In this document: one piece after another, positions 50,344-61,463 of the stretch | How positions within the stretch are numbered: position 1 is the stretch's first letter | Layout of the letters: each line of letters opens with the position of its first letter | Assembly (NCBI RefSeq): GCF_002556545.1 | Contig: NZ_CP022685.1 | Span: forward strand, 7,170,001 to 7,234,000 | DNA length: 64,000 nucleotides | Source of the DNA: Streptomyces formicae | GTDB lineage: Bacteria; Actinomycetota; Actinomycetes; Streptomycetales; Streptomycetaceae | Direction: 5' to 3' | Translations under genes and position numbers: made by a program | The notes under the pieces: model-generated | Seen by the model: only the letters and a program-made list of their open reading frames with translations | Databases searched by the model: none | What the model was told of the DNA's origin: nothing

Positions 50344-51945
50344 CTAGACCCCCTTGGGAAGATCGGCGGCCCGTTCTCCTGACAAGGGCTTCGGCTCCCG
50401 GTGCGGTGCGCATTCCGCGTGCCGTTCCGGGAGGCGGCCCTCCAGGAGATACGCGTCCAGGTGGCCGTTGACGCACTTGTTGGGGCCCGCGGCGATGCCG
50501 TGCGTGCCCGCCCCCTCCTCGGTCACCAGGACCGAGTCCCGCAGCCTGCGGTTGAGTTCCCGCGCGCCCTCGTACGGGGTCGCCGCGTCCCGCTCGGCGG
50601 CCAGGATCAGCGTCGGGGGCAGCGCGCCCTTCGCCGTGCGCACGTCCACCGCCTGCTGCCGGGGCGCGGGCCAGTAGGCGCAGGGCAGGTTCATCCAGGC
50701 GTTGTCCCAGGTCTCGAACGGCGCCACGCGCGCGAGGTCGGAGTTGTCGCGGTCCCAGACCCGGAAGTCCGTCGGCCAGGCCGCGTCGTTGCACTCGACG
50801 GCGGTGTAGACGGCGTTGCCGTTCTCCTCCTCCGCGGCGCCCTTCGGCTCCGGTGCCGCCTGCTCGATCAGCGGCTTCGGATCGCCCTTCAGATAGGCGG
50901 AAAGGGCCGAGGCGCGCGTCGGCCAGTAGTCGTCGTAGTACCCGGCCTTGAGGAAGGCGGCCTGGAGCTGACCGGGGCCGACCTTGCCGCCGGCGGGCTT
51001 GTGGGACAGCTCCGCGCGGACCTTCTCGTAGCTGCGCAGCACCTCGTCGGGCGTCCCGCCCAGGTGGTACACCTTGTCGTGCTTGGCCACCCAGGCGCGG
51101 AAGTCCGCCCAGCGCCCCTCGAACGCCATCGACTGTTCGAGGTTGTTGCCGTACCAGATCTGCGAGGGCTCGGGGTTGACCGCCGAGTCGAACACCATCC
51201 GCCGCACGTGCGAGGGGAAGAGCGTCGCGTACACCGCGCCGAAGTAGGTGCCGTACGAAGCGCCCATGAACGTCAGCTTCCGCTCGCCGACGGCGGCCCG
51301 CAGCACGTCCAGGTCACGGGCGTTGTTCAGCGTCGTGTAGTGCCGCAGGCCCGGATTGCGGGTGCCGCAGCCGCGCGCGTACGCCTTCGCCTGCGCGACG
51401 CGCTCCCGCTTGTACGAGGCGTCGGGGTGGGTCGGCGCCTGGGTGGGCGCCTTCACGTACTGCTTGGGGTCCTGGCAGGTCAGCGGCGCCGAGCGGCCCA
51501 CCCCGCGCGGGGCGTAGCCGACCAGGTCGTACGCCGCAGCGATGCGCTTCCACTCGGGCAACACGCCCACCAGCGGGAAGTACATGCCCGAGCCGCCGGG
51601 GCCGCCCGGGTTGAAGACGAGCGCGCCCTGGCGCGCGACCGCCTTGCCCGCCGCCTTCTTCGTGGCCTTGGTGCGGCTGACGGTCAGCTTGATCTTCTTG
51701 CCGTCGGGGTGCGCGTAGTCGAGGGGCACCGTGACCGTGCCGCACCGGACGGACGGCGGGAGGCCCTCGGCCTTCGCGCAGGTGCCCCAGCGGATCCCGG
51801 CGGCCTCCGCGCGCTGGGCGGCGACGGCGGTGCCGCGTGTCTCGGGCGACGGCGGAGCGCCGCTCGCGGAACCCGCGGGGGCGGCGACGAGGGCGGTCAG
51901 GACCAAGGATCCGGCGGTTCCGTAGCGGGCGGCTGCTGCTCTCAT
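50344..51945 (-). CDS. Secreted tripeptidyl aminopeptidase-like alpha/beta hydrolase (S33)
   Basis: 533 aa. Signal peptide (AAAARYGTAGSLVLTALVAAPAGSASGA). Triad: Ser in GASYGTYFG, Asp in AERDAATP, His in GAGTHGI; oxyanion segment FNPGGPGGSG. The C-terminal TAP-like domain is present. Family members remove tripeptides from secreted proteins. ATG 51945 with GAAG. It is the last gene of a minus-strand run that includes the DUF692 cluster and could process an exported peptide from it; that link is only positional. Confidence 0.9.
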   Translation of the reverse strand: MRAAAARYGTAGSLVLTALVAAPAGSASGAPPSPETRGTAVAAQRAEAAGIRWGTCAKAEGLPPSVRCGTVTVPLDYAHPDGKKIKLTVSRTKATKKAAGKAVARQGALVFNPGGPGGSGMYFPLVGVLPEWKRIAAAYDLVGYAPRGVGRSAPLTCQDPKQYVKAPTQAPTHPDASYKRERVAQAKAYARGCGTRNPGLRHYTTLNNARDLDVLRAAVGERKLTFMGASYGTYFGAVYATLFPSHVRRMVFDSAVNPEPSQIWYGNNLEQSMAFEGRWADFRAWVAKHDKVYHLGGTPDEVLRSYEKVRAELSHKPAGGKVGPGQLQAAFLKAGYYDDYWPTRASALSAYLKGDPKPLIEQAAPEPKGAAEEENGNAVYTAVECNDAAWPTDFRVWDRDNSDLARVAPFETWDNAWMNLPCAYWPAPRQQAVDVRTAKGALPPTLILAAERDAATPYEGARELNRRLRDSVLVTEEGAGTHGIAAGPNKCVNGHLDAYLLEGRLPERHAECAPHREPKPLSGERAADLPKGV

Positions 51946-52042: not shown

Positions 52043-52816
52043 TCAATGACCCCGTTGCGCCGTATCAGGCCGGGACCGGTGCCCGAAGGCCGCCCGCAGG
52101 CCGGGGTCGGGCAGGGCCCGGACGCCGCGTACGGCGACGGTGGTCAGCTCGTCGCGGGCCGCGGGCAGCGCGCCGAGGAGCCGCTGCCCCGCGGGGGAGG
52201 CCCACCGCGTGTACGGGTGGACCTCGATGCGGGCGATGATGAGGCACCCCACGCAGAGCATCAGCGGCAGCGAGAACCAGATCGCCACCGGGACCTGCCC
52301 CGAGGCCGCCCGCCCCTGGGTCGGCATGCACACCGCGAGGGCGCCGAGCGCGAGCACCGCCACCGTCGCCGCGCGCACCTGCCGCGCGGCGGCCGCGACG
52401 CCCGTGCCCGCGCTCTCCGGCACAGCGAGTCCGGCCGCGACGAGCCGCTCGCCGAGGGCGCGCACCGCGTCGGCGGTGGCCGCGCCCTTGCGTATGGGCG
52501 CTATCCGCGACTGGCCGTCGGGGCCGATCGCGCCGAGCACCGAACGCTCCACCTCGTCGCGGCCGACCGGGTCGACGACGGTCGCCCACCCGGTGTGCGC
52601 GATCAGCAGCCGACGCGCCCCCGCCATCGCGACGAGCGCCACATCGGCGACCCGCGAGGGGCCGCCGGAGAGGAAGGCCGTCTCGTAGAGGGTCAGCTCG
52701 TGGCCGCGGGGCGCGGCCCTCTCGTGGGTGGCGGCGCGGCTCGCGGCGAGGCAGAGCCTGCCGCAGGAGAGGCCGGTCGCGGCCCAGGCGAGGAGGAGAA
52801 GGGGCAGCCAGAACAT
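52043..52816 (-). CDS. TIGR04222-domain membrane protein without Cys tail
   Basis: 257 aa. TM at 1-20 (FWLPLLLLAWAATGL), then HELTLYETAFLSGGPSRVADVALVAM, which matches the start of the second TIGR04222 protein (VRGTLEAAFLSGGPARVADALIAG), and a central TM pair (VRAATVAVLALGALAV; VAIWFSLPLMLCVGCLIIA). It ends in DTAQRGH with no Gly/Cys repeat. It seems to be a paralogue that lost or never had the repeat tail. ATG 52816, no RBS. Confidence 0.82.
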   Translation of the reverse strand: MFWLPLLLLAWAATGLSCGRLCLAASRAATHERAAPRGHELTLYETAFLSGGPSRVADVALVAMAGARRLLIAHTGWATVVDPVGRDEVERSVLGAIGPDGQSRIAPIRKGAATADAVRALGERLVAAGLAVPESAGTGVAAAARQVRAATVAVLALGALAVCMPTQGRAASGQVPVAIWFSLPLMLCVGCLIIARIEVHPYTRWASPAGQRLLGALPAARDELTTVAVRGVRALPDPGLRAAFGHRSRPDTAQRGH

Positions 52817-52933: not shown

Positions 52934-53680
52934 CTACTTGTCCGGCTTCGGGCGCGAGGCCGCCGGGGGGAGCGAGAACGTCGGTGACGGGGTGACCGGT
53001 GCGGCGGGGGACGGTGTGGCGGTGGGGCCCGGTGGGGCGGGGGAGCGGGTCGCGGGGGCCTGGCCCGTGGCGGCGTCGCGCGCGAGTCCGTCGAAGTCGA
53101 CGAGGCCGGTCTTCTCCAGGACCTTGATGTGGTCGAGGACGGTGGTGTTGGCGTCGTCGGCGAGGGCGCGGACCAGCGAGTTGCGGGTGCTCGCGCGGAC
53201 CTCGGCCACCACCGAGAAGACCTTGCCGTGGGCGCGGCGCAGGATGTTCGCGAAGTCCTCGTCGTACGTCTGGCCGTGCGCGGCGCTCAACTCGGCGAGC
53301 CAGCCGCGCTGTTGGGGATTGGGCTGGCTCGGCAGTTCGAGGCTGAGCCGGGCCGCGACCTCGCGTACGCGCGCGTCGAGGAAGGTGTGGCCCTCGACGA
53401 GGTGCTCACCCGCCGTGCGCACGGCCTTGGTGGTGCCGCGCTCCTCGGCCTGCTGTCCGGCAGGGAGTTCCCACAGGCCCGCGAGGCGCACCTTGGTGAT
53501 GAACTCCCGGTCCAGGGCGGACAGCGGCCCGAAGTCGGTCGACACGGTCTCCGCGTTGAGCCTGTCGAGGGTGGTGCCCGAGCGGTCCTCGTACGACCAG
53601 AGGGGGAAGAGCAGGGCAGCCAGGGTCGCGACGAGCCCCGCGACGACGAGACCGGTGCCGTTGATGGATCGGGATCGCAT
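52934..53680 (-). CDS. DUF4142 exported protein, copy 1
   Basis: 248 aa. N-terminal membrane anchor (LVVAGLVATLAALLFPLW), then a four-helix DUF4142 domain ([85 protein letters not shown]) and a Pro/Ser/Thr-rich tail. ATG 53680 preceded by GGAGGCACC. DUF4142 resembles ferritin-like helical bundles, but no metal ligand set is obvious. Paralogue of the gene at 56317. Confidence 0.85.
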   Translation of the reverse strand: MRSRSINGTGLVVAGLVATLAALLFPLWSYEDRSGTTLDRLNAETVSTDFGPLSALDREFITKVRLAGLWELPAGQQAEERGTTKAVRTAGEHLVEGHTFLDARVREVAARLSLELPSQPNPQQRGWLAELSAAHGQTYDEDFANILRRAHGKVFSVVAEVRASTRNSLVRALADDANTTVLDHIKVLEKTGLVDFDGLARDAATGQAPATRSPAPPGPTATPSPAAPVTPSPTFSLPPAASRPKPDK

Positions 53681-53826: not shown

Positions 53827-54933
53827 TCATGACCCGCCGCCGCAGGAGGATCCGCCCCCACCGCAGGAGGATCCGCCTCCTCCGCCGCCGCAGGAGGATC
53901 CGCCGCCTCCGCCACAGGAGGAGCCGCCACCTCCGCCGCACGACGAGCCGCCGCCCCCGCCGCAGGACGAGCCCCCACCACCGGAACACGCCGAGCCCGC
54001 GCCGCCGGAGCAGGTGAACCCGCCGCCCCCGCCACCGCCGCCCGACCCGCACCACGTGGGCGTCCCGCTGTTGCCGCTCCCCGCATTCGTGCCCTGGTAC
54101 GGAGCGGGGTACGTCCCCGCCGCGGTCACCGCGGGGACCCGGACCCGTACGCGGGCCGCGGCGACCAGCTGGGCCCGCAGATCGGGGTGGGCCGCGGCCA
54201 GGCCGCGGGTCGCCACCAGGTGCGCGGCGCCCGTGAGATGGCCCGCCGAGCCGACGTACTCGCGCAGCGCGTACTGCCCGGCGAGCGTGAGCTGCTTCGA
54301 GCTGACGGACAGGCAGATCAGGCCGCTCACGACGCCGAAGATCCCGGCGGGCAGCAGCATCGCGATACCGTCGCCCACCGAGTCCGCCGACCCGCTCGCC
54401 GCGCTGTCACCGGCGTACTGCGCCACCGTCAGCATGCCCGCCACCACGAACCCGAAGACGCTCAGGAGCACCTGTACACCGGCCCGGCGCCGCCACTTGT
54501 CCTGCCGCCCAGGACGCACGACGAGGCCGCGCCCCGCGAGCGCCTCGCCCGTCTCCTGCACCGGCAGGCTCCGCATGACGGCCGTCCGCAGCCCGTGCAG
54601 CGCGCCGCTCGGCCCCGCGGCGTACGCGTCGATCACCGCCTGCTCGCCCGCATTGCGCGCCGTCGGCCGGGGAATCCCGACGACGCCGGGGCCCGCCACG
54701 ACCAGACGGCCGTCCTCGTGCAGACCCGCGATCAGCGCGTCGGCCACGCGCGCCGGGCCGCCGGAGAGGAACGCGGCCTCCAGGGTGCCGCGCACGTAGA
54801 CGCCGTGCTCGGCATCGAGCGGCGGCCGCGTCCGGTGCGGCGACCAGGTGCGCCGAGCAGCGGCCAGGCCCCGGATCAGTTCCGCGGCGCACAGCGAGAT
54901 GACCACCGTGTACACCACACCCGCGATGCTCAT
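53827..54933 (-). CDS. TIGR04222 membrane protein with nine-Cys Gly/Ser tail (candidate RiPP precursor)
   Basis: 368 aa. TM1 (4-24), soluble part with AAFLSGGPARVADALIAGLH, two central TMs (about 150-172 and 190-208), a basic region, then residues 294-368: Gly-rich with nine Cys. The last six Cys occur in SSC units spaced by 4-6 Gly; earlier Cys are in WCGSG, FTCSG and SACSG. ATG 54933 is 4 bp after the DUF692 stop, so the two are coupled. DUF692 (MNIO) enzymes modify Cys in peptide precursors (methanobactin, TglH, bufferins). The tail is therefore a plausible substrate carried on a membrane anchor. The product is unknown. Confidence 0.88.
   Translation of the reverse strand: MSIAGVVYTVVISLCAAELIRGLAAARRTWSPHRTRPPLDAEHGVYVRGTLEAAFLSGGPARVADALIAGLHEDGRLVVAGPGVVGIPRPTARNAGEQAVIDAYAAGPSGALHGLRTAVMRSLPVQETGEALAGRGLVVRPGRQDKWRRRAGVQVLLSVFGFVVAGMLTVAQYAGDSAASGSADSVGDGIAMLLPAGIFGVVSGLICLSVSSKQLTLAGQYALREYVGSAGHLTGAAHLVATRGLAAAHPDLRAQLVAAARVRVRVPAVTAAGTYPAPYQGTNAGSGNSGTPTWCGSGGGGGGGGFTCSGGAGSACSGGGGSSCGGGGGSSCGGGGGSSCGGGGGSSCGGGGGGSSCGGGGSSCGGGS
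53830..54046 (-). repeat. Degenerate short tandem repeats encoding the SSC-Gly tail
   Basis: On the plus strand the unit reads roughly GCAGGAGGATCCGCC with added CCGCC steps; GCA is the complement of the Cys codon TGC. Units vary from 21 to 27 bases, so the number of Cys is probably prone to change by slippage. Confidence 0.8.
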
Positions 54934-54937
54934 GCCG

Positions 54938-56236
54938 TCACCGCCCGAGGAGTACGCGCCGGGTGGCCCGTCGCAGCCGTGCGGCGGGCCGCAGGGACAG
55001 CGGCGCGGGGCCCGAACGCTCCAGCCACCAGTCGCTCAACTCCCGGCGCGCCTGCGCCTCTTCGGGCCGCCCCGCGAGCAGCAGGTGCTCGGCGAAGGTC
55101 AGCGCGTCGTGCCGGTAGCCACCGGTCATCGGCCGGGACCTCGCGTACTCGACGAACGCCGCGCGGTAATCCCCGCCGAGGATCCCCGGCAGCTCGGGCG
55201 CCACCTTCGCCACGACGTCGGCCCGCTTGGCCGCGAGCGCGTGGCTCTGCACCCGCAGCCGCGCGTGGTCGAACCCCTCGGGCGCGGGCGTCCCCGCCAC
55301 GAGCGCGGAGAGCAGCGCGGCCTGCGCGAGCCCGGTGCGCTGGCGCGCGTCCGGGGAGGCGGGCGCCGGGTCGGCGGTGGTGGACTCCGCGCCGGTGGCG
55401 GCGGCCGGTGCGCCCGCGGTCGTGAGCGTCTCCCGGATCGCGGTCAGTTCGCGCTCCAGCTCGGCGGGTGCCGGAAAGTTCTCGTCGCGCTCCAGGAGGA
55501 CACCGGGCGGGCTCACCCGGGACGCGAGGTCGGCGAGCACGGCGAGCACGGCATCGGGCACCGGGTGCGCGTGGCTGTCGTGCCAGACGCCGTCCCGCTC
55601 GAAGCCGCCCGCGACGTGGACGTACGCGATGGCCTCGACCGGCAGTTCGTCGAGGGCCTTGGCCGGGTCCTCGCCGCGGTTGACGTGGTTGGTGTGGAGG
55701 TTGGCGACGTCGATGAGCAGCCGTACGCCCGTGCGCTCGACGAGCTCGTACAGGAACTGCCCCTCCGTCATCTCCTCGCAGGGCCAGGAGATCAGCGCCG
55801 CGATGTTCTCCACGGCGAGCGGCACGGGCAGCGCGGCCTGCGCGATGCGGACGTTCTCGCACAGCACGTCGAGCGCGTCACGGGTGCGCGGCACCGGCAG
55901 CAGGTGCCCGGCCTCGAGCGGCTGCGTCGCGGTGAGCGGACCACCGGCCCGTACGAACGCGATGTGCTCGGTGACGAGCGGCGAGCCGAGCGCCTCGGCG
56001 CGCTCGGCCAGCGCCCGCAGCCTTCCCTCGTCGGGGCGGTCGGCGCCGCCGAGCCCCAGCGAGACGCCGTGCGGCACCACGGTCACCCCGCGCTCGCGCA
56101 GCCGCACCAGCGAATCGGGCAGGTGCCCCGGGCAGACGTTCTCCGCCACGGCCTCCACCCAGTCGATGCCGGGCATCGCCTCCACGGCGTCCGCGATCTC
56201 GGGACGCCAGCCGATTCCGGTGCCCAGATGCCTCAT
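54938..56236 (-). CDS. DUF692 (MNIO) iron oxidase with fused C-terminal partner-like domain
   Basis: 432 aa. Residues 1-290 are a DUF692/MbnB-type TIM barrel: [70 protein letters not shown] and LERDENFP supply the His/Asp/Glu/Asn iron ligands. The family's usual DVNN is DVAN here. An Ala/Ser/Pro linker (about 291-320) leads to a helical domain of about 110 residues ([48 protein letters not shown]) that resembles the DUF2063/BufC-like partner normally encoded separately. ATG 56236 has GGGGGAG. Its likely substrate is the Cys-tailed protein encoded 4 bp downstream. Confidence 0.9.
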
Positions 56237-56316: not shown

Positions 56317-57081
56317 CTACATTTGAGGTTCCGGCCGCCCGGTCTCGATCCGGCCGGGAGGCAGGGGCGAGGGGCGTGACGTGGTGGACACGTCGCCGCT
56401 CGGGCCCGCGGGGGAGGGGGCGGGAGGCGTCGCGCCGGACGGCGGGGGAGGCCCGGTGGGGCTCGCCGTGGAGGTGGCCGCGCCGTTCGCGATCCCGTCG
56501 AAGTCGACGAGCCCGGTCGCCTCCAGCATCGTGATGTGGTCGAGGACGGTCTGGTTGGAGTCCGTGGCGAGCTGGCGGACCAGGGAGTTGCGGGTGCTGT
56601 CGCGGACCTGGGCGATGACGGCGAAGACCTTCCCGTGCGAGGCCCGCAGCAGGTTCGCGAACTTCCGCTGGTACGTCTCGCCGCTCGCGTCCGTCAGCTC
56701 CTGGAGCCAGCCGCGCTGCTGTGCGGTGGGCTGGCTCGGGAGTTCGACACCGAGCTGCGCCGCGGCCGACCGCACGCGCCGGTCGAGATCGGTGTGGCCG
56801 ACGATGAGGTGGTCCCCCGCCTCCTTGACCGCCTCGGTCGGCGCGCGCTCGACGGCCTGCTGTCCGGCGGGGATCTCCCACAGACCGGCGAGCCGCACCT
56901 TCACGAGCAGGTCCCTGTCGGCCGCCGACAGCGGACCCCAACGGGTGGGCACGGACCCCGCGGCCAGGTTGGCGGGCCCCGTGCCCGAGCGGTCGGCGTA
57001 GGACCACACGGGGAACGCGATCGCCCCCAGCGTGGCCACGAGTGCCGCGATGATCAGAGCCGTGCCGTTGACGCGTCGCAA
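56317..57081 (-). CDS. DUF4142 exported protein, copy 2
   Basis: 254 aa from TTG 57081, chosen because GGGAGGCACC before it mirrors GGAGGCACC before the ATG of copy 1, and the following codons align ([17 protein letters not shown] against RSINGTGLVVAGLVATL). Same layout: N-terminal anchor, DUF4142 helices ([50 protein letters not shown]), Pro/Ser-rich tail. An 80-bp gap precedes the DUF692 gene. The close similarity to copy 1, extending to the RBS, indicates a duplication. Confidence 0.85.
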
Positions 57082-57136
57082 GGTGCCTCCCGAATCGCCG
57101 TGGTAGCGGGAGATACGGAAGGGACAGGCGATGCGT

Positions 57137-57784
57137 TCAGTGCGGCGCGGGCACCAGTGCCGGATCCGTCGCCGCCGCGCGCAGCCGCGCGGCGATGGCG
57201 GTGCTCGCCCAGCGGTAGGCCCGCGACTCGTCGTGCAGCACCGAGTGCGCGTTCGCCGTCTCCATGAGGGCGATGCACTCGAAGGCGAGCTGGGGGAGGT
57301 CCGTGTCCGCATGCAGTTCGGCGGCGTCGACGGCCTCGGCGAGCGAGCGCTCCATCAGCTCGCTCCAGTCGCGGTTGGCGCGGACGAGCGCGTCGTGCAC
57401 CGGGCCCTCGCGGGCGTCGAACTCGGCGATCACCCCGTAGAAGAAGCAGCCGCCGGGGAAGACGCGCTGCTCGGAGTAGTCGAGCCACGCCGTGCAGAGC
57501 CGCCACACGCGGGCGACGCCGGGCGGGGTCCGCAGGGCGGGTTCCACCACCGTGTCCAGATAGATGCGCCCGGCGGCCCGCACGGTCGCCAGCTGCAACT
57601 CCTCCTTGGAGCCGAAGAGCGCGAACACGCCGCTCTTGCTCAGCTTCAGCTCGGTGGCGATCCGGCCGAGCGACAGCGCGTCGAGCCCCTCCACCGAAGC
57701 GACGTCGACCGTGCGCCGCAGCACCAGGCGGCGGGTCTGGTTGCCGCGCTCGACCCGGCCGTCGAGCCGGGTGCCGCCCGTCAC
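57137..57784 (-). CDS. TetR-family regulator
   Basis: 215 aa. N-terminal HTH (LDALSLGRIATELKLSKSGVFALFGSKEELQLATV); a helical ligand domain with LDYSEQRVFPGGCFFYGVIAEFDAREGPV, typical of the YcdC/AcrR-like C-terminal family. GTG 57784 overlaps the stop of the upstream gene (GTGA), so it is co-transcribed with the peptidyl-tRNA hydrolase gene. It lies 55 bp before the DUF4142/DUF692 run and could control it. Confidence 0.87.
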   Translation of the reverse strand: MTGGTRLDGRVERGNQTRRLVLRRTVDVASVEGLDALSLGRIATELKLSKSGVFALFGSKEELQLATVRAAGRIYLDTVVEPALRTPPGVARVWRLCTAWLDYSEQRVFPGGCFFYGVIAEFDAREGPVHDALVRANRDWSELMERSLAEAVDAAELHADTDLPQLAFECIALMETANAHSVLHDESRAYRWASTAIAARLRAAATDPALVPAPH

Positions 57785-58542
57785 GCCCGTGCCGTACGCA
57801 GGGCGGGGTGGTCGGCGACCACCGTGCAGGAACCGGGGGCGATCTCCGTGAAGCCCGCGTCGCGCACCACCGGCAGCCCGCTCGCGGTGAGTTCGCGCCA
57901 GCGCGCCGCGTCCGGCGTGCGCACGGACAGCGGGAAGCCCGCGTCGCGCCACGCGGTCCGGTCCGCGTCCGACAGCTCCCACCAGGCCAGCTGGGCGCCG
58001 TGACCCGCCTGGGCCATCGCCTTGCCCGCCGACATCTCGACGTCGGGGCTCATCCAGAGCACGGGGTGCGCGCTGTCCGCGCCGGGCGGCGGCTCCGGGT
58101 CGTCGAGCTCGGTGCCCGAGACCTGGAGCTTGACCAGCTCCTTGGGCCAGCCGTCGAGCGGCACCGGCGGGAAGACGCGGACCTCCGCCGACTTGCCCGT
58201 GACCGTGATGCCGGGCAGCGTCTCCGCCCGCCGCCACTCGGCGCCTCGGGCGCGCCTGACCACCTTGCGGATCCGGGCGTCCTGCCAGTCGCGCACGGCC
58301 TGCGCCCACTCGCCTTCGCCGACGGAACGCTCGTCGCTCAGCAGCACGAGGACGGCGCGGGCCGCGGTCTCCAGGGCGTCCGTGCGGGCCGGGGGAGCGG
58401 CGCGTTCGATGCGGGCGACGAGGGGCAGCACGAACTGCGGGGCCTCGTCGCGCGAGGTGTTCTCGTGCCGGAAGGGGCTGTCCGCCGCGCTCGGGGCGTC
58501 CGGGCCCTGCGACGCTTCGGGGTGGGTCTTGTCGCTGCTCAC
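57781..58542 (-). CDS. Peptidyl-tRNA hydrolase PTH2-like protein
   Basis: 253 aa. A C-terminal PTH2 domain of about 120 residues (WMSPDVEMSAGKAMAQAGHGAQ, corresponding to the MSKGKxAAQxxHA motif, and VVADHPALR at the end) is preceded by about 130 residues of helical sequence. GTG 58542. PTH2 enzymes cleave stalled peptidyl-tRNA. Divergent from the ABC ATPase gene across 79 bp. Confidence 0.82.
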   Translation of the reverse strand: MSSDKTHPEASQGPDAPSAADSPFRHENTSRDEAPQFVLPLVARIERAAPPARTDALETAARAVLVLLSDERSVGEGEWAQAVRDWQDARIRKVVRRARGAEWRRAETLPGITVTGKSAEVRVFPPVPLDGWPKELVKLQVSGTELDDPEPPPGADSAHPVLWMSPDVEMSAGKAMAQAGHGAQLAWWELSDADRTAWRDAGFPLSVRTPDAARWRELTASGLPVVRDAGFTEIAPGSCTVVADHPALRTARA

Positions 58543-58621
58543 GCGTCCAGTCTGCCAGGCGGAAGATCGGCCGTACCTGGGATTACTCCTCGCGCGAAGG
58601 GGCGTGCGCGAGGATGACCGC

Positions 58622-59617
58622 ATGGAACGTGATCTCGCGATACGGCTCGACGGGGTGGGCAGGCGCTACGCCCTGCGCGGTCCCTGGGTGCTGCGCGGCG
58701 TGGACCTCGGCATCGGCGCGGGCACCCTGGTGCGGATCGAGGGCGCCAACGGCACGGGGAAGTCGACCCTGTTGAGACTCCTCGCGGGCATCGACGCACC
58801 CTCGGAGGGGCGTCGGGAAGGGCGCCCGCGCACGGCGTTCGTCCCCGAACGCTTCCCCGCGTCGCTGCCGTTCAGCGCGGTGGGCTACCTGACGCACCTG
58901 GGCCGCGTGCACGGCCTCGCGCGGGGCGCCGCTGAGCGGAGCGCCGAACAGTGGCTGGAGCGTTTCGGCGCGGGCGGTTACGCGCGTACGCCGCTGGCGG
59001 AGCTGTCCAAGGGCAGCAGCCAGAAGGTCGCCGTGGCGCAGGCCCTGCTCGCCGACCCCGAACTGCTCGTGCTCGACGAGGCGTGGACGGGCCTGGACGC
59101 GGCGGCCCGCGCCGAACTCGACCGCGCCGTGGCCGAACGGCGGGCGGCCGGGGGTGCGGTGGTCTTCGTCGACCACGATCCGCGGCGGCTCCTCGGGGCG
59201 ACGGACGAGACGTACGCGGTGGTGGGCGCGGCGCTCAACCGCCGTACGGAGAGCGGTACTTGGGGTGAGGGGGAAGGCGGCGGCAGCGCGGCGCCGCCCG
59301 CAGGACCCACCGTCGTCATCGAGGCGCAGGGGCCGCTGGGCGCGGAGCTGCCGCCGTCCGTCGCGTCGGCGGTGACGGGTATCGGCGAGCCGACTCCGGA
59401 GGGAGTGACGCGGCTCTCGGTGCCGGAGAGCCGTTCCGACGTCGTACTGAAGGAACTGCTCATGGCGCGGCCGCCCTGGCACGTGGTGACGGTGGGCGGC
59501 GCGGGGCCGACGGTGTCGTCGGCGTCGGCGTCGGCGTCGGCGTCGGATTCGGCATCGGCATCGGCGTCGGCTTCGGTGTCGTCGTCCCTGTCGGTGGACG
59601 GGGGTGAGCCTCGATGA
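58622..59617 (+). CDS. ABC transporter ATPase with Ser/Ala repeat tail
   Basis: 331 aa. Walker A EGANGTGKST, an altered signature ELSKGSSQK in place of LSGGQ, Walker B LLVLDEAW and switch VDHD. After the ATPase (about 210 residues) comes a Gly-rich linker, a small alpha/beta-looking part (TVVIEAQGPLGAELPP) and a C-terminal SASASASASDSASAS tract. ATG 58622. It overlaps the permease gene (ATGA). Likely an exporter; substrate unknown. Confidence 0.88.
   Translation: MERDLAIRLDGVGRRYALRGPWVLRGVDLGIGAGTLVRIEGANGTGKSTLLRLLAGIDAPSEGRREGRPRTAFVPERFPASLPFSAVGYLTHLGRVHGLARGAAERSAEQWLERFGAGGYARTPLAELSKGSSQKVAVAQALLADPELLVLDEAWTGLDAAARAELDRAVAERRAAGGAVVFVDHDPRRLLGATDETYAVVGAALNRRTESGTWGEGEGGGSAAPPAGPTVVIEAQGPLGAELPPSVASAVTGIGEPTPEGVTRLSVPESRSDVVLKELLMARPPWHVVTVGGAGPTVSSASASASASDSASASASASVSSSLSVDGGEPR
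59519..59576 (+). repeat. TCGGCG hexanucleotide tract
   Basis: About nine TCGGCG-like units encode the Ser/Ala tail of the ABC ATPase. In-frame, so copy changes alter length only. Confidence 0.85.
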
Positions 59618-60319: not shown

Positions 60320-60544
60320 TCAGCCCGAGCAGGCAGTGCGCTGGGCTTCCTGCCACTCGCAGACGGGGCAGAGGGTGATGCCCTTGTGGGACTCCGGGTA
60401 CTCGGTGGGCGCGCGGCACAGGACGCACTCGGCGAGGGGCTCGCCGCTTCCCGTACCCACGACTTCGCCGGTACCCGTACCTGCACCTGTACCCGCACCC
60501 GTACCTGTACCCGTACCCATGCTCATGAAGTGCTCATCGCCCAT
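60320..60544 (-). CDS. Zinc-ribbon microprotein with Gly-Thr repeat
   Basis: 74 aa. Residues 9-26 are Gly/Thr/Ala repeats (GTGTGTGAGTG). The C-terminal half has CVLC and CPVC, a small zinc ribbon. ATG 60544. Function unknown; the Cys pairs and the high-quality ribbon make it a likely real gene. Confidence 0.68.
   Translation of the reverse strand: MGDEHFMSMGTGTGTGAGTGAGTGTGEVVGTGSGEPLAECVLCRAPTEYPESHKGITLCPVCEWQEAQRTACSG
60469..60519 (-). repeat. GTACCC-type hexanucleotide tract
   Basis: Eight or so units of CCGTAC/CTGTAC/CCGCAC encode the Gly-Thr stretch of the zinc-ribbon microprotein. Confidence 0.8.
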
Positions 60545-60554
60545 GCGGCCCAGC

Positions 60555-61463
60555 CTAGCTCCGGGCCTCCACGGGCCCGGCGGTCGCGGCGGCGCCGGTC
60601 GCCCCCGCCGCGCCGCCCGCCGCGCCGATCTGCTCCGACACCCGCACGAAGCGGAATCCGCGCTCGCGCAGCTTCGGGACGATCGTCCGCAGGGCGCGCT
60701 CGGTCGCGGGGGCGGCGCTGCGCGTGCAGTGCATGACGACCACCGAACCGGGCCGCACCCCGTCGAGCACCTGCCGGGCGACCGCGCCCGAGTCCGTGGC
60801 GAAGGCGTCGCCGCTCACCACGTCCCACTGCACGGCGGTGACGCCGGGCGCGAGCGCGCGCAGGGCTTGACGGTCGTAGCAGCCGCCGGGAAAACGGAAG
60901 TACGGCACCGCGCGCTCGACGCCCGCCTTGCGGAAGGCGTCGAAGGCGCGCTCCATGTCCGTGCGCATGCGGGGCGCGGGGACGGTCGGCAGGCCGTAGC
61001 AGCTGCCGGTGAAGGCGTGATGGCTGTACGAGTGGTTGGCGACCTCGAAGAGCGGGTCCTTGCCGATGTCCTTGGCCTGTGCCGGGTACTCCTCGGCCCA
61101 GCGTCCCGTCATGAAGAAGGTCGCCGGCACGTCGAGCCGTCGCAGGGTGGCGACGAGCGCGGGGTTGTCGAACCGCTCCCCGGCCGCCGCGCGGGGCCCC
61201 TGGTCGGCGGTCATGTCGGCGTCGAAGGTGAGCGCGACGGTGCGGCCGTGCGCGCGGGACCCGTTCATGAACACGGGGGTGAGGCCCGAAGGGCCGGGGG
61301 TGAGAGTGGGCGGGGCGGACGCGGTCGCGGCCGCGGTCGCCGGGGGCTTGGCCGGAAGGGCCGGGCGCCCCGGCGCGGCGGTGTCACCGGAGCATCCGGC
61401 GAGGACGGTGGTCAGGACGCCGAGGGCGCAGAGCGCGGCGCATCTCCGTACGAGAGTGATCAC
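60555..61463 (-). CDS. Polysaccharide deacetylase lipoprotein (NodB)
   Basis: 302 aa. Lipobox LAGC, a Pro/Ala/Thr linker, then the NodB domain: TFDADM (motif 1), NHSYSHHAF (motif 2, metal His pair), YFRFPGGCYD (motif 3), VVVMHC near the end. Acts outside the cell on an N-acetylated glycan, e.g. peptidoglycan or chitin oligomers. GTG 61463 with TATATC 9-14 bases upstream, so it is probably leaderless. Confidence 0.88.
   Translation of the reverse strand: MITLVRRCAALCALGVLTTVLAGCSGDTAAPGRPALPAKPPATAAATASAPPTLTPGPSGLTPVFMNGSRAHGRTVALTFDADMTADQGPRAAAGERFDNPALVATLRRLDVPATFFMTGRWAEEYPAQAKDIGKDPLFEVANHSYSHHAFTGSCYGLPTVPAPRMRTDMERAFDAFRKAGVERAVPYFRFPGGCYDRQALRALAPGVTAVQWDVVSGDAFATDSGAVARQVLDGVRPGSVVVMHCTRSAAPATERALRTIVPKLRERGFRFVRVSEQIGAAGGAAGATGAAATAGPVEARS

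Follow-up and report, generated by a model that had tools for sequence, protein, structure and literature searches.

In Streptomyces formicae, a gene for an MNIO (DUF692) enzyme is followed by a gene for a TIGR04222 membrane protein that ends in a Cys-rich Gly/Ser tail. Does the enzyme modify the Cys residues of its neighbour's tail, and how general is the pairing? We address these questions using a window of 64,000 nucleotides (the whole stretch of DNA that was analysed), together with samples of Streptomyces genomes and of genomes from across the class. The pair is probably a two-part modification unit, in which a fused MNIO-partner enzyme has as its likeliest substrate the Cys-tailed membrane protein encoded by the next gene.

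The locus and its MNIO enzyme

Genome search of the source genome, a single contig of 9.61 Mb, gave a single match for MNIO and two for TIGR04222, all at this locus, where the minus-strand genes run in the order DUF4142, MNIO, Cys-tailed TIGR04222, DUF4142 and tail-less TIGR04222 (Table 1). The first-pass annotation had described the DUF692 gene, a 4-bp gap between it and the Cys-tailed TIGR04222 gene, and nine Cys in the last 75 residues, six of them in SSC units. Each of these details was borne out; what it had overlooked were some 160 additional MNIO residues, the tail-less TIGR04222 gene and the two DUF4142 genes.

Table 1. Features of the MNIO/TIGR04222 locus, in window coordinates
Feature	Position	Strand	Evidence
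MNIO (DUF692) enzyme, 432 aa, catalytic barrel and C-terminal module as a probable natural fusion	54938..56236	-	PF05114 257.1 bits (gathering cut-off 25), E 2e-76; model pLDDT 90.8
Catalytic barrel, residues 1-272	55421..56236	-	PF05114 covers 6-270; best solved matches TglH, 3bww, MbnB
Helical C-terminal module, probable fused partner protein, 139 residues modelled	54941..55357	-	Separate gene elsewhere; TglI top match
TIGR04222 membrane protein with Cys tail, probable substrate, 368 aa	53827..54933	-	94.9 bits, cut-off 43
C-terminal 75 residues: Gly/Ser chain carrying nine Cys, conserved Trp-Cys at start	53830..54054	-	Cys spacing, conservation
Second TIGR04222 protein, without Cys tail	52043..52816	-	139.9 bits, cut-off 43
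DUF4142 protein	52934..53680	-	PF13628 73 bits
DUF4142 protein, start unsettled	56317..57252	-	PF13628 70.4 bits
PTH2-like protein	57781..58623	-	PF01981 35.1 bits, cut-off 23
Small Cys-rich zinc-ribbon-like protein	60320..60814	-	
Alpha/beta hydrolase with TAP-like domain	50344-51945		

The enzyme passes the PF05114 cut-off, and its modelled catalytic domain is a TIM barrel that matches TglH, 3bww and MbnB in structure comparison. Its candidate metal residues (His/Asp/Glu), which may act as ligands according to the alignment with 3bww, are invariant across 74 aligned rows of Streptomyces MNIO. The best NCBIfam match is BufB (NF050167) at 176.8 bits, under the curated cut-off of 310, and the methanobactin MbnB model gives 30.5 bits with a cut-off of 325.

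Beyond PF05114, the enzyme's extra residues form a C-terminal module that is all-helical in the predicted model. The module is a gene of its own in 5 of 74 Streptomyces loci, and in other actinomycetes it is encoded as the next gene after MNIO, directly following it in 28 of the 31 MNIO loci of other genera. A search of 118 genomes gave at least 25 module matches, and 25 of 25 were directly downstream of MNIO, the gene position expected of MNIO partner proteins of type 2 (PME-type 2). The module's model aligns best with TglI, the partner of the MNIO TglH. Consequently, as the module is separable, is the next gene elsewhere and aligns best with TglI, the window MNIO is probably a natural enzyme-partner fusion, and we infer that the module acts as the partner. 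A Foldseek search with the module model returned nothing significant, and NGO1945 was absent both there and from a second structural comparison; the DUF2063 Pfam signature (PME-type 1) gave no match at E up to 10, and the sequences of solved structures yielded one weak, unrelated match. Among the papers searched, no report of an MNIO-module fusion was found.

The two DUF4142 genes, on either side of the MNIO/TIGR04222 pair, recur in many Streptomyces loci. Excerpts from one paper describe DUF4142 as ferritin-like, putatively exported and a member of a lanthanophore cluster (PMC11317620); we set aside a metal link through DUF4142, for which this one source is too thin. A zinc-ribbon-like gene is close to MNIO in 43 of 73 Streptomyces loci and is probably an ordinary neighbour. 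A check for plasmid carriage gave no match, and promoter, terminator and Rfam scans found nothing. We take SCO6045 to be the S. coelicolor relative of the window MNIO. SCO6045 is listed among RNA-seq results tabulated for the HbpS-SenS-SenR redox system, within the excerpted part of PMC4991794, and this entry is a lead only.

The Cys tail and its side of the membrane

The last 75 residues of the membrane protein comprise 9 Cys, 44 Gly and 17 Ser, with 4-6 Gly between the SSC units and successive Cys spacings of 13, 8, 8, 8, 8, 8, 9 and 7. A binomial test on the Cys count, with an assumed 1% Cys, gives 7e-8. When the tail's bases are shuffled within each codon position, the mean is 14 Cys and 92.5% of shuffles contain a stop. 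The bare number of Cys is thus unsurprising at the given base composition, and we therefore judge the tail by its conservation instead. At least six Cys are present in 46 of the 49 listed homologues (the window protein included), the exceptions being P0127, P0140 and P0167, all of them shorter, with the end of P0167 out-of-frame. Among the 32 of these 49 that were aligned, Cys295 is invariant and Trp294 is at least 90% conserved. The repeat units of the tail differ from one another at synonymous positions.

By hydropathy, 61 of 77 TIGR04222 proteins have three transmembrane segments, and for 59 of these the charge distribution favours a C-terminus in the cytoplasm. In all 46 Streptomyces homologues, positive charge is higher before the second and after the third segment than in the intervening loop (mean charges +4.5, +2.7 and -3.2, respectively). 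Among other genera, 20 of 29 proteins with the hairpin agree with a cytoplasmic tail, 2 of 31 have no hairpin, and 10 of 29 contain one more hydrophobic stretch, a fourth, by which the tail could come to face outward. By the charge rule, a cytoplasmic tail is favoured in Streptomyces, which suggests a conflict with excerpts of PMC12452194 that place the tail in the periplasm. On inspection, the enzyme sequence starts directly with the barrel, and a cytoplasmic tail would therefore be within its reach. The first-pass annotation had proposed an array at the cell surface, a placement that the charges make doubtful.

Pairing of tail and enzyme across genomes

In a sample of 150 Streptomyces genomes, MNIO was found in 142 and a TIGR04222 match in at least 131; these large genome searches scored part of the first-look candidates, and absences in them are not proof. 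MNIO loci were taken from 62 Streptomyces genomes of at most 10 contigs, with 18 further stretches. In 34 of the 62 loci, a TIGR04222 gene with at least four tail Cys directly follows MNIO or its split-off second part. The other 28 loci lack a Cys-tailed gene next to their MNIO, and consequently enzyme and tail do not obligately go together. In G046 and G102, two genomes without an MNIO match, the only TIGR04222 gene at the place taken (L206 and L207) is tail-less.

A class-wide set of 296 genomes, with TIGR04222 in at least 109 and MNIO in 76, supplied 74 TIGR04222 loci, which we sorted into five groups. The first group holds 31 genes near MNIO, all from other genera and always in the order TIGR04222 then MNIO, and 30 of them have at least three Cys after the domain. 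At four of these loci (L302, L310, L311 and L316), another TIGR04222 gene, with 5, 0, 3 and 7 Cys, respectively, stands between the counted gene and MNIO. L315 is the sole gene of the 31 without Cys after the domain. A second group contains 13 genes of other genera whose genomes have an MNIO match elsewhere; nine have a Gly/Ser-rich 30-mer, and seven of these nine tails have at least two Cys. A third group comprises 22 genes from genomes in which no MNIO was found. Eight have a Gly/Ser-rich 30-mer, of which one has at least two Cys (L325, near a contig end), one has a single Cys and six have none. Seven distant Streptomyces copies (three Gly/Ser-rich, none with two Cys) and one gene from a Streptomyces without an MNIO found (not Gly/Ser-rich) complete the set.

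Outside Streptomyces, Cys thus occur in 27 of 30 Gly/Ser tails near MNIO versus 1 of 8 where no MNIO was found (Fisher p 7e-5). As a control for kinship, independent pairs were counted on a tree of 162 TIGR04222 genes, which omits L336 and TIGR04222 matches shorter than 150 aa or with a stop; they stood at 3:0 on median (p 0.25). L178 entered this tree as a Cys-free adjacent gene, despite the 10 tail Cys in its long read-through frame. The link between tail Cys and MNIO, strong by count, is only suggestive after this control. The first-pass annotation had named a lack of genomic co-occurrence between enzyme and Cys tail as grounds against its reading, and such a lack is not what is seen. The two do form a genomic unit, in the 34 Streptomyces loci and near MNIO in other genera, and the unit lacks its tailed half at the remaining 28.

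Five Cys-tailed genes (L283, L286, L292, L295 and L296) are in genomes whose MNIO matches are elsewhere, which suggests action in trans. Cys-Gly-Gly or Cys-Gly-Gly-Gly is the terminus of many Cys tails outside Streptomyces (L282-L322), and this fixed end may be relevant to recognition.

The Streptomyces enzymes without a Cys-tailed neighbour are closely related to each other. In a phylogeny of 74 Streptomyces MNIO domains, 28 of these 30 fall into a single group (SH-aLRT 87, not starred) beside the lineage of the window (the window MNIO, L183 and L208), a pattern that fits one loss of the tailed neighbour; three changes are needed in all for tail presence or absence. Among the 28 few-contig genomes concerned, 26 belong to this group. 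The enzymes retain every candidate metal residue, and the median pairwise dN/dS of their barrels is 0.137, versus 0.201 in the others; on these two results, we reject a dead enzyme at these loci.

What these enzymes might act on is less apparent. A TIGR04222 match is present somewhere in 24 of the 28 genomes, and none was found in four. We took 12 TIGR04222 places from these genomes, consisting of distant copies and one main copy, with a 64-aa fragment containing a stop omitted. Cys-Gly tails with at least three Cys occur at two places, in G008 (L357, three Cys) and G026 (L366, four Cys); one further place has two Cys and the rest have none or one. In at least two of the 28 genomes, therefore, the enzyme may have a substrate in trans. 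No replacement Cys-rich gene was found near MNIO: among gene clusters common to at least 6 of the 30 loci, the one short Cys-rich cluster considered, the zinc-ribbon-like gene, was rejected as a replacement substrate, being present in 23 of 30 loci without the tail but also in 20 of 43 with it. For most of these enzymes, then, no tailed substrate is in sight, which is the main fact against a simple story of one enzyme and one tail. Distant, shorter TIGR04222 proteins in Streptomyces (L348, L352, L354, L358, L362, L363, L365 and L366) have Gly-rich ends with one to four Cys, in some cases preceded by Tyr or Gly, and are possibly a second subfamily.

A candidate modification unit and its known relatives

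Could the tail remain an unmodified thiol array, a metal or redox buffer, while the neighbouring MNIO acts on something else? The Streptomyces loci without a tailed neighbour, with their enzymes under purifying selection, would fit this reading, as would the Cys-rich tails in 7 of 13 TIGR04222 genes far from MNIO; yet an MNIO match exists at another place in the genome of each of those 13, six of the eight Gly/Ser tails lack any Cys where no MNIO was found, and gene order and close spacing recur in more than half of the Streptomyces loci (34 of 62). We consider an unmodified array unlikely. In a related reading, the MNIO targets residues other than Cys, or a different product of the operon (DUF4142 or the tail-less TIGR04222, for example). 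Excerpts of PMC12452194 give Asp, Asn or Phe as residues modified by other MNIOs, and Streptomyces loci without the tail mostly retain DUF4142 and/or a tail-less TIGR04222 beside MNIO. However, most DUF4142 proteins at these loci have no Cys or one and no repeated motif was seen in them, and the tailed protein is the constant neighbour of MNIO in other genera, which together make this alternative very improbable.

The tail could also be the product of low-complexity drift, in which a slippage-prone, GC-rich repeat generates Cys codons from Gly and Ser codons. Such drift would account for the shuffled Cys counts and for the Cys-free Gly/Ser-rich tails in the TIGR04222 family, but it sits badly with the invariant Cys295, the homologues with six or more Cys, the synonymous variation between repeat units and the company that tail Cys keep with MNIO neighbours. 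Conservation largely refutes it, and we regard it as scarcely credible.

If the pair is instead the two-part unit that we prefer, the fusion of this multinuclear non-haem iron oxidase to its partner domain would mean that barrel and partner are always made 1:1, and the tail would offer a Cys about every eight residues on a flexible Gly/Ser chain. The fused holoenzyme would bind the membrane protein and take its tail Cys one after another, converting some or all of them. By analogy with oxazolin, the nearest precedent for the product would be a 5-thiooxazole; alternative outcomes are an oxazolone/thioamide, carbon excision or no reaction. For thiooxazoles, excerpts of PMC13419390 give a mass loss of 4 Da for each Cys modified. 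The modified protein would remain anchored in the membrane as a metal-binding (soft metal) or redox-active array. We offer more tentatively, as a scenario whose parts are doubtful in combination, that the holoenzyme modifies up to nine Cys on the cytoplasm-facing tail of an integral membrane protein, so that the product, though ribosomally encoded, is never released, and that one Streptomyces clade lost the neighbour and kept the enzyme for another substrate.

The literature searched assigns no function to this widespread Streptomyces MNIO. A single-chain enzyme encoded 4 bp from its probable substrate is a simple test system for membrane-protein modification by MNIOs, and its apparent built-in helper domain makes the published pairing easier to test. 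The clade with the enzyme and without a Cys-tailed neighbour is a natural route to a second substrate.

The pairing itself is already published as a proposal: excerpts of Antoine et al. 2025 (PMC12452194) put forward Cys-tailed TIGR04222 proteins as MNIO substrates, in systems that share with the window the TIGR04222 domain, the Cys-rich Gly/Ser tail and the MNIO neighbour. The first-pass annotation knew of no characterised product of this architecture; those excerpts likewise describe none, and the idea was not new. They also report a TIGR04222 gene after MNIO in more than 10% of cases, the same order as in the window, and a peptidyl-tRNA hydrolase-like neighbour (adjamnio-II) with MNIO and TIGR04222, of which the window has one (Table 1). 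The same source notes that a gene for a partner protein seems to be missing from many clusters; the window's partner is probably fused to the enzyme. Beyond these excerpts, the present analysis adds the fusion and fission of the module, the Cys-poor tails where no MNIO was detected, the group of enzymes that lack a tailed neighbour, and the disagreement about topology.

Among characterised systems, the TglH-TglI holoenzyme (8hi7, 8hci) resembles the window enzyme in combining an MNIO barrel with a helical partner. TglI is encoded separately and has an RRE as its C-terminal domain (excerpts of PMC10880893), whereas the window module is fused and, at about 120-139 residues, too short for both TglI parts (helical and RRE); the TglH-TglI substrate is a small peptide, unlike the membrane protein here. 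The bufferin/oxazolin systems (BufB-BufC, HvfB-HvfC) likewise pair an MNIO with a partner and target Cys in repeated Cys-Gly motifs, but, according to excerpts of PMC12452194, bufferin precursors start with Sec signal peptides and an RRE-type domain is part of the partners. MovX is also an MNIO with a C-terminally fused domain that may act as a partner (excerpts of PMC13419390); that domain is an RRE or a winged helix-turn-helix, while the window module is all-helical in its model. Methanobactin MbnB-MbnC shares the barrel fold and an MNIO that acts on Cys of a ribosomal precursor, and differs in that methanobactin is a small secreted product, unlike the anchored protein of the window.
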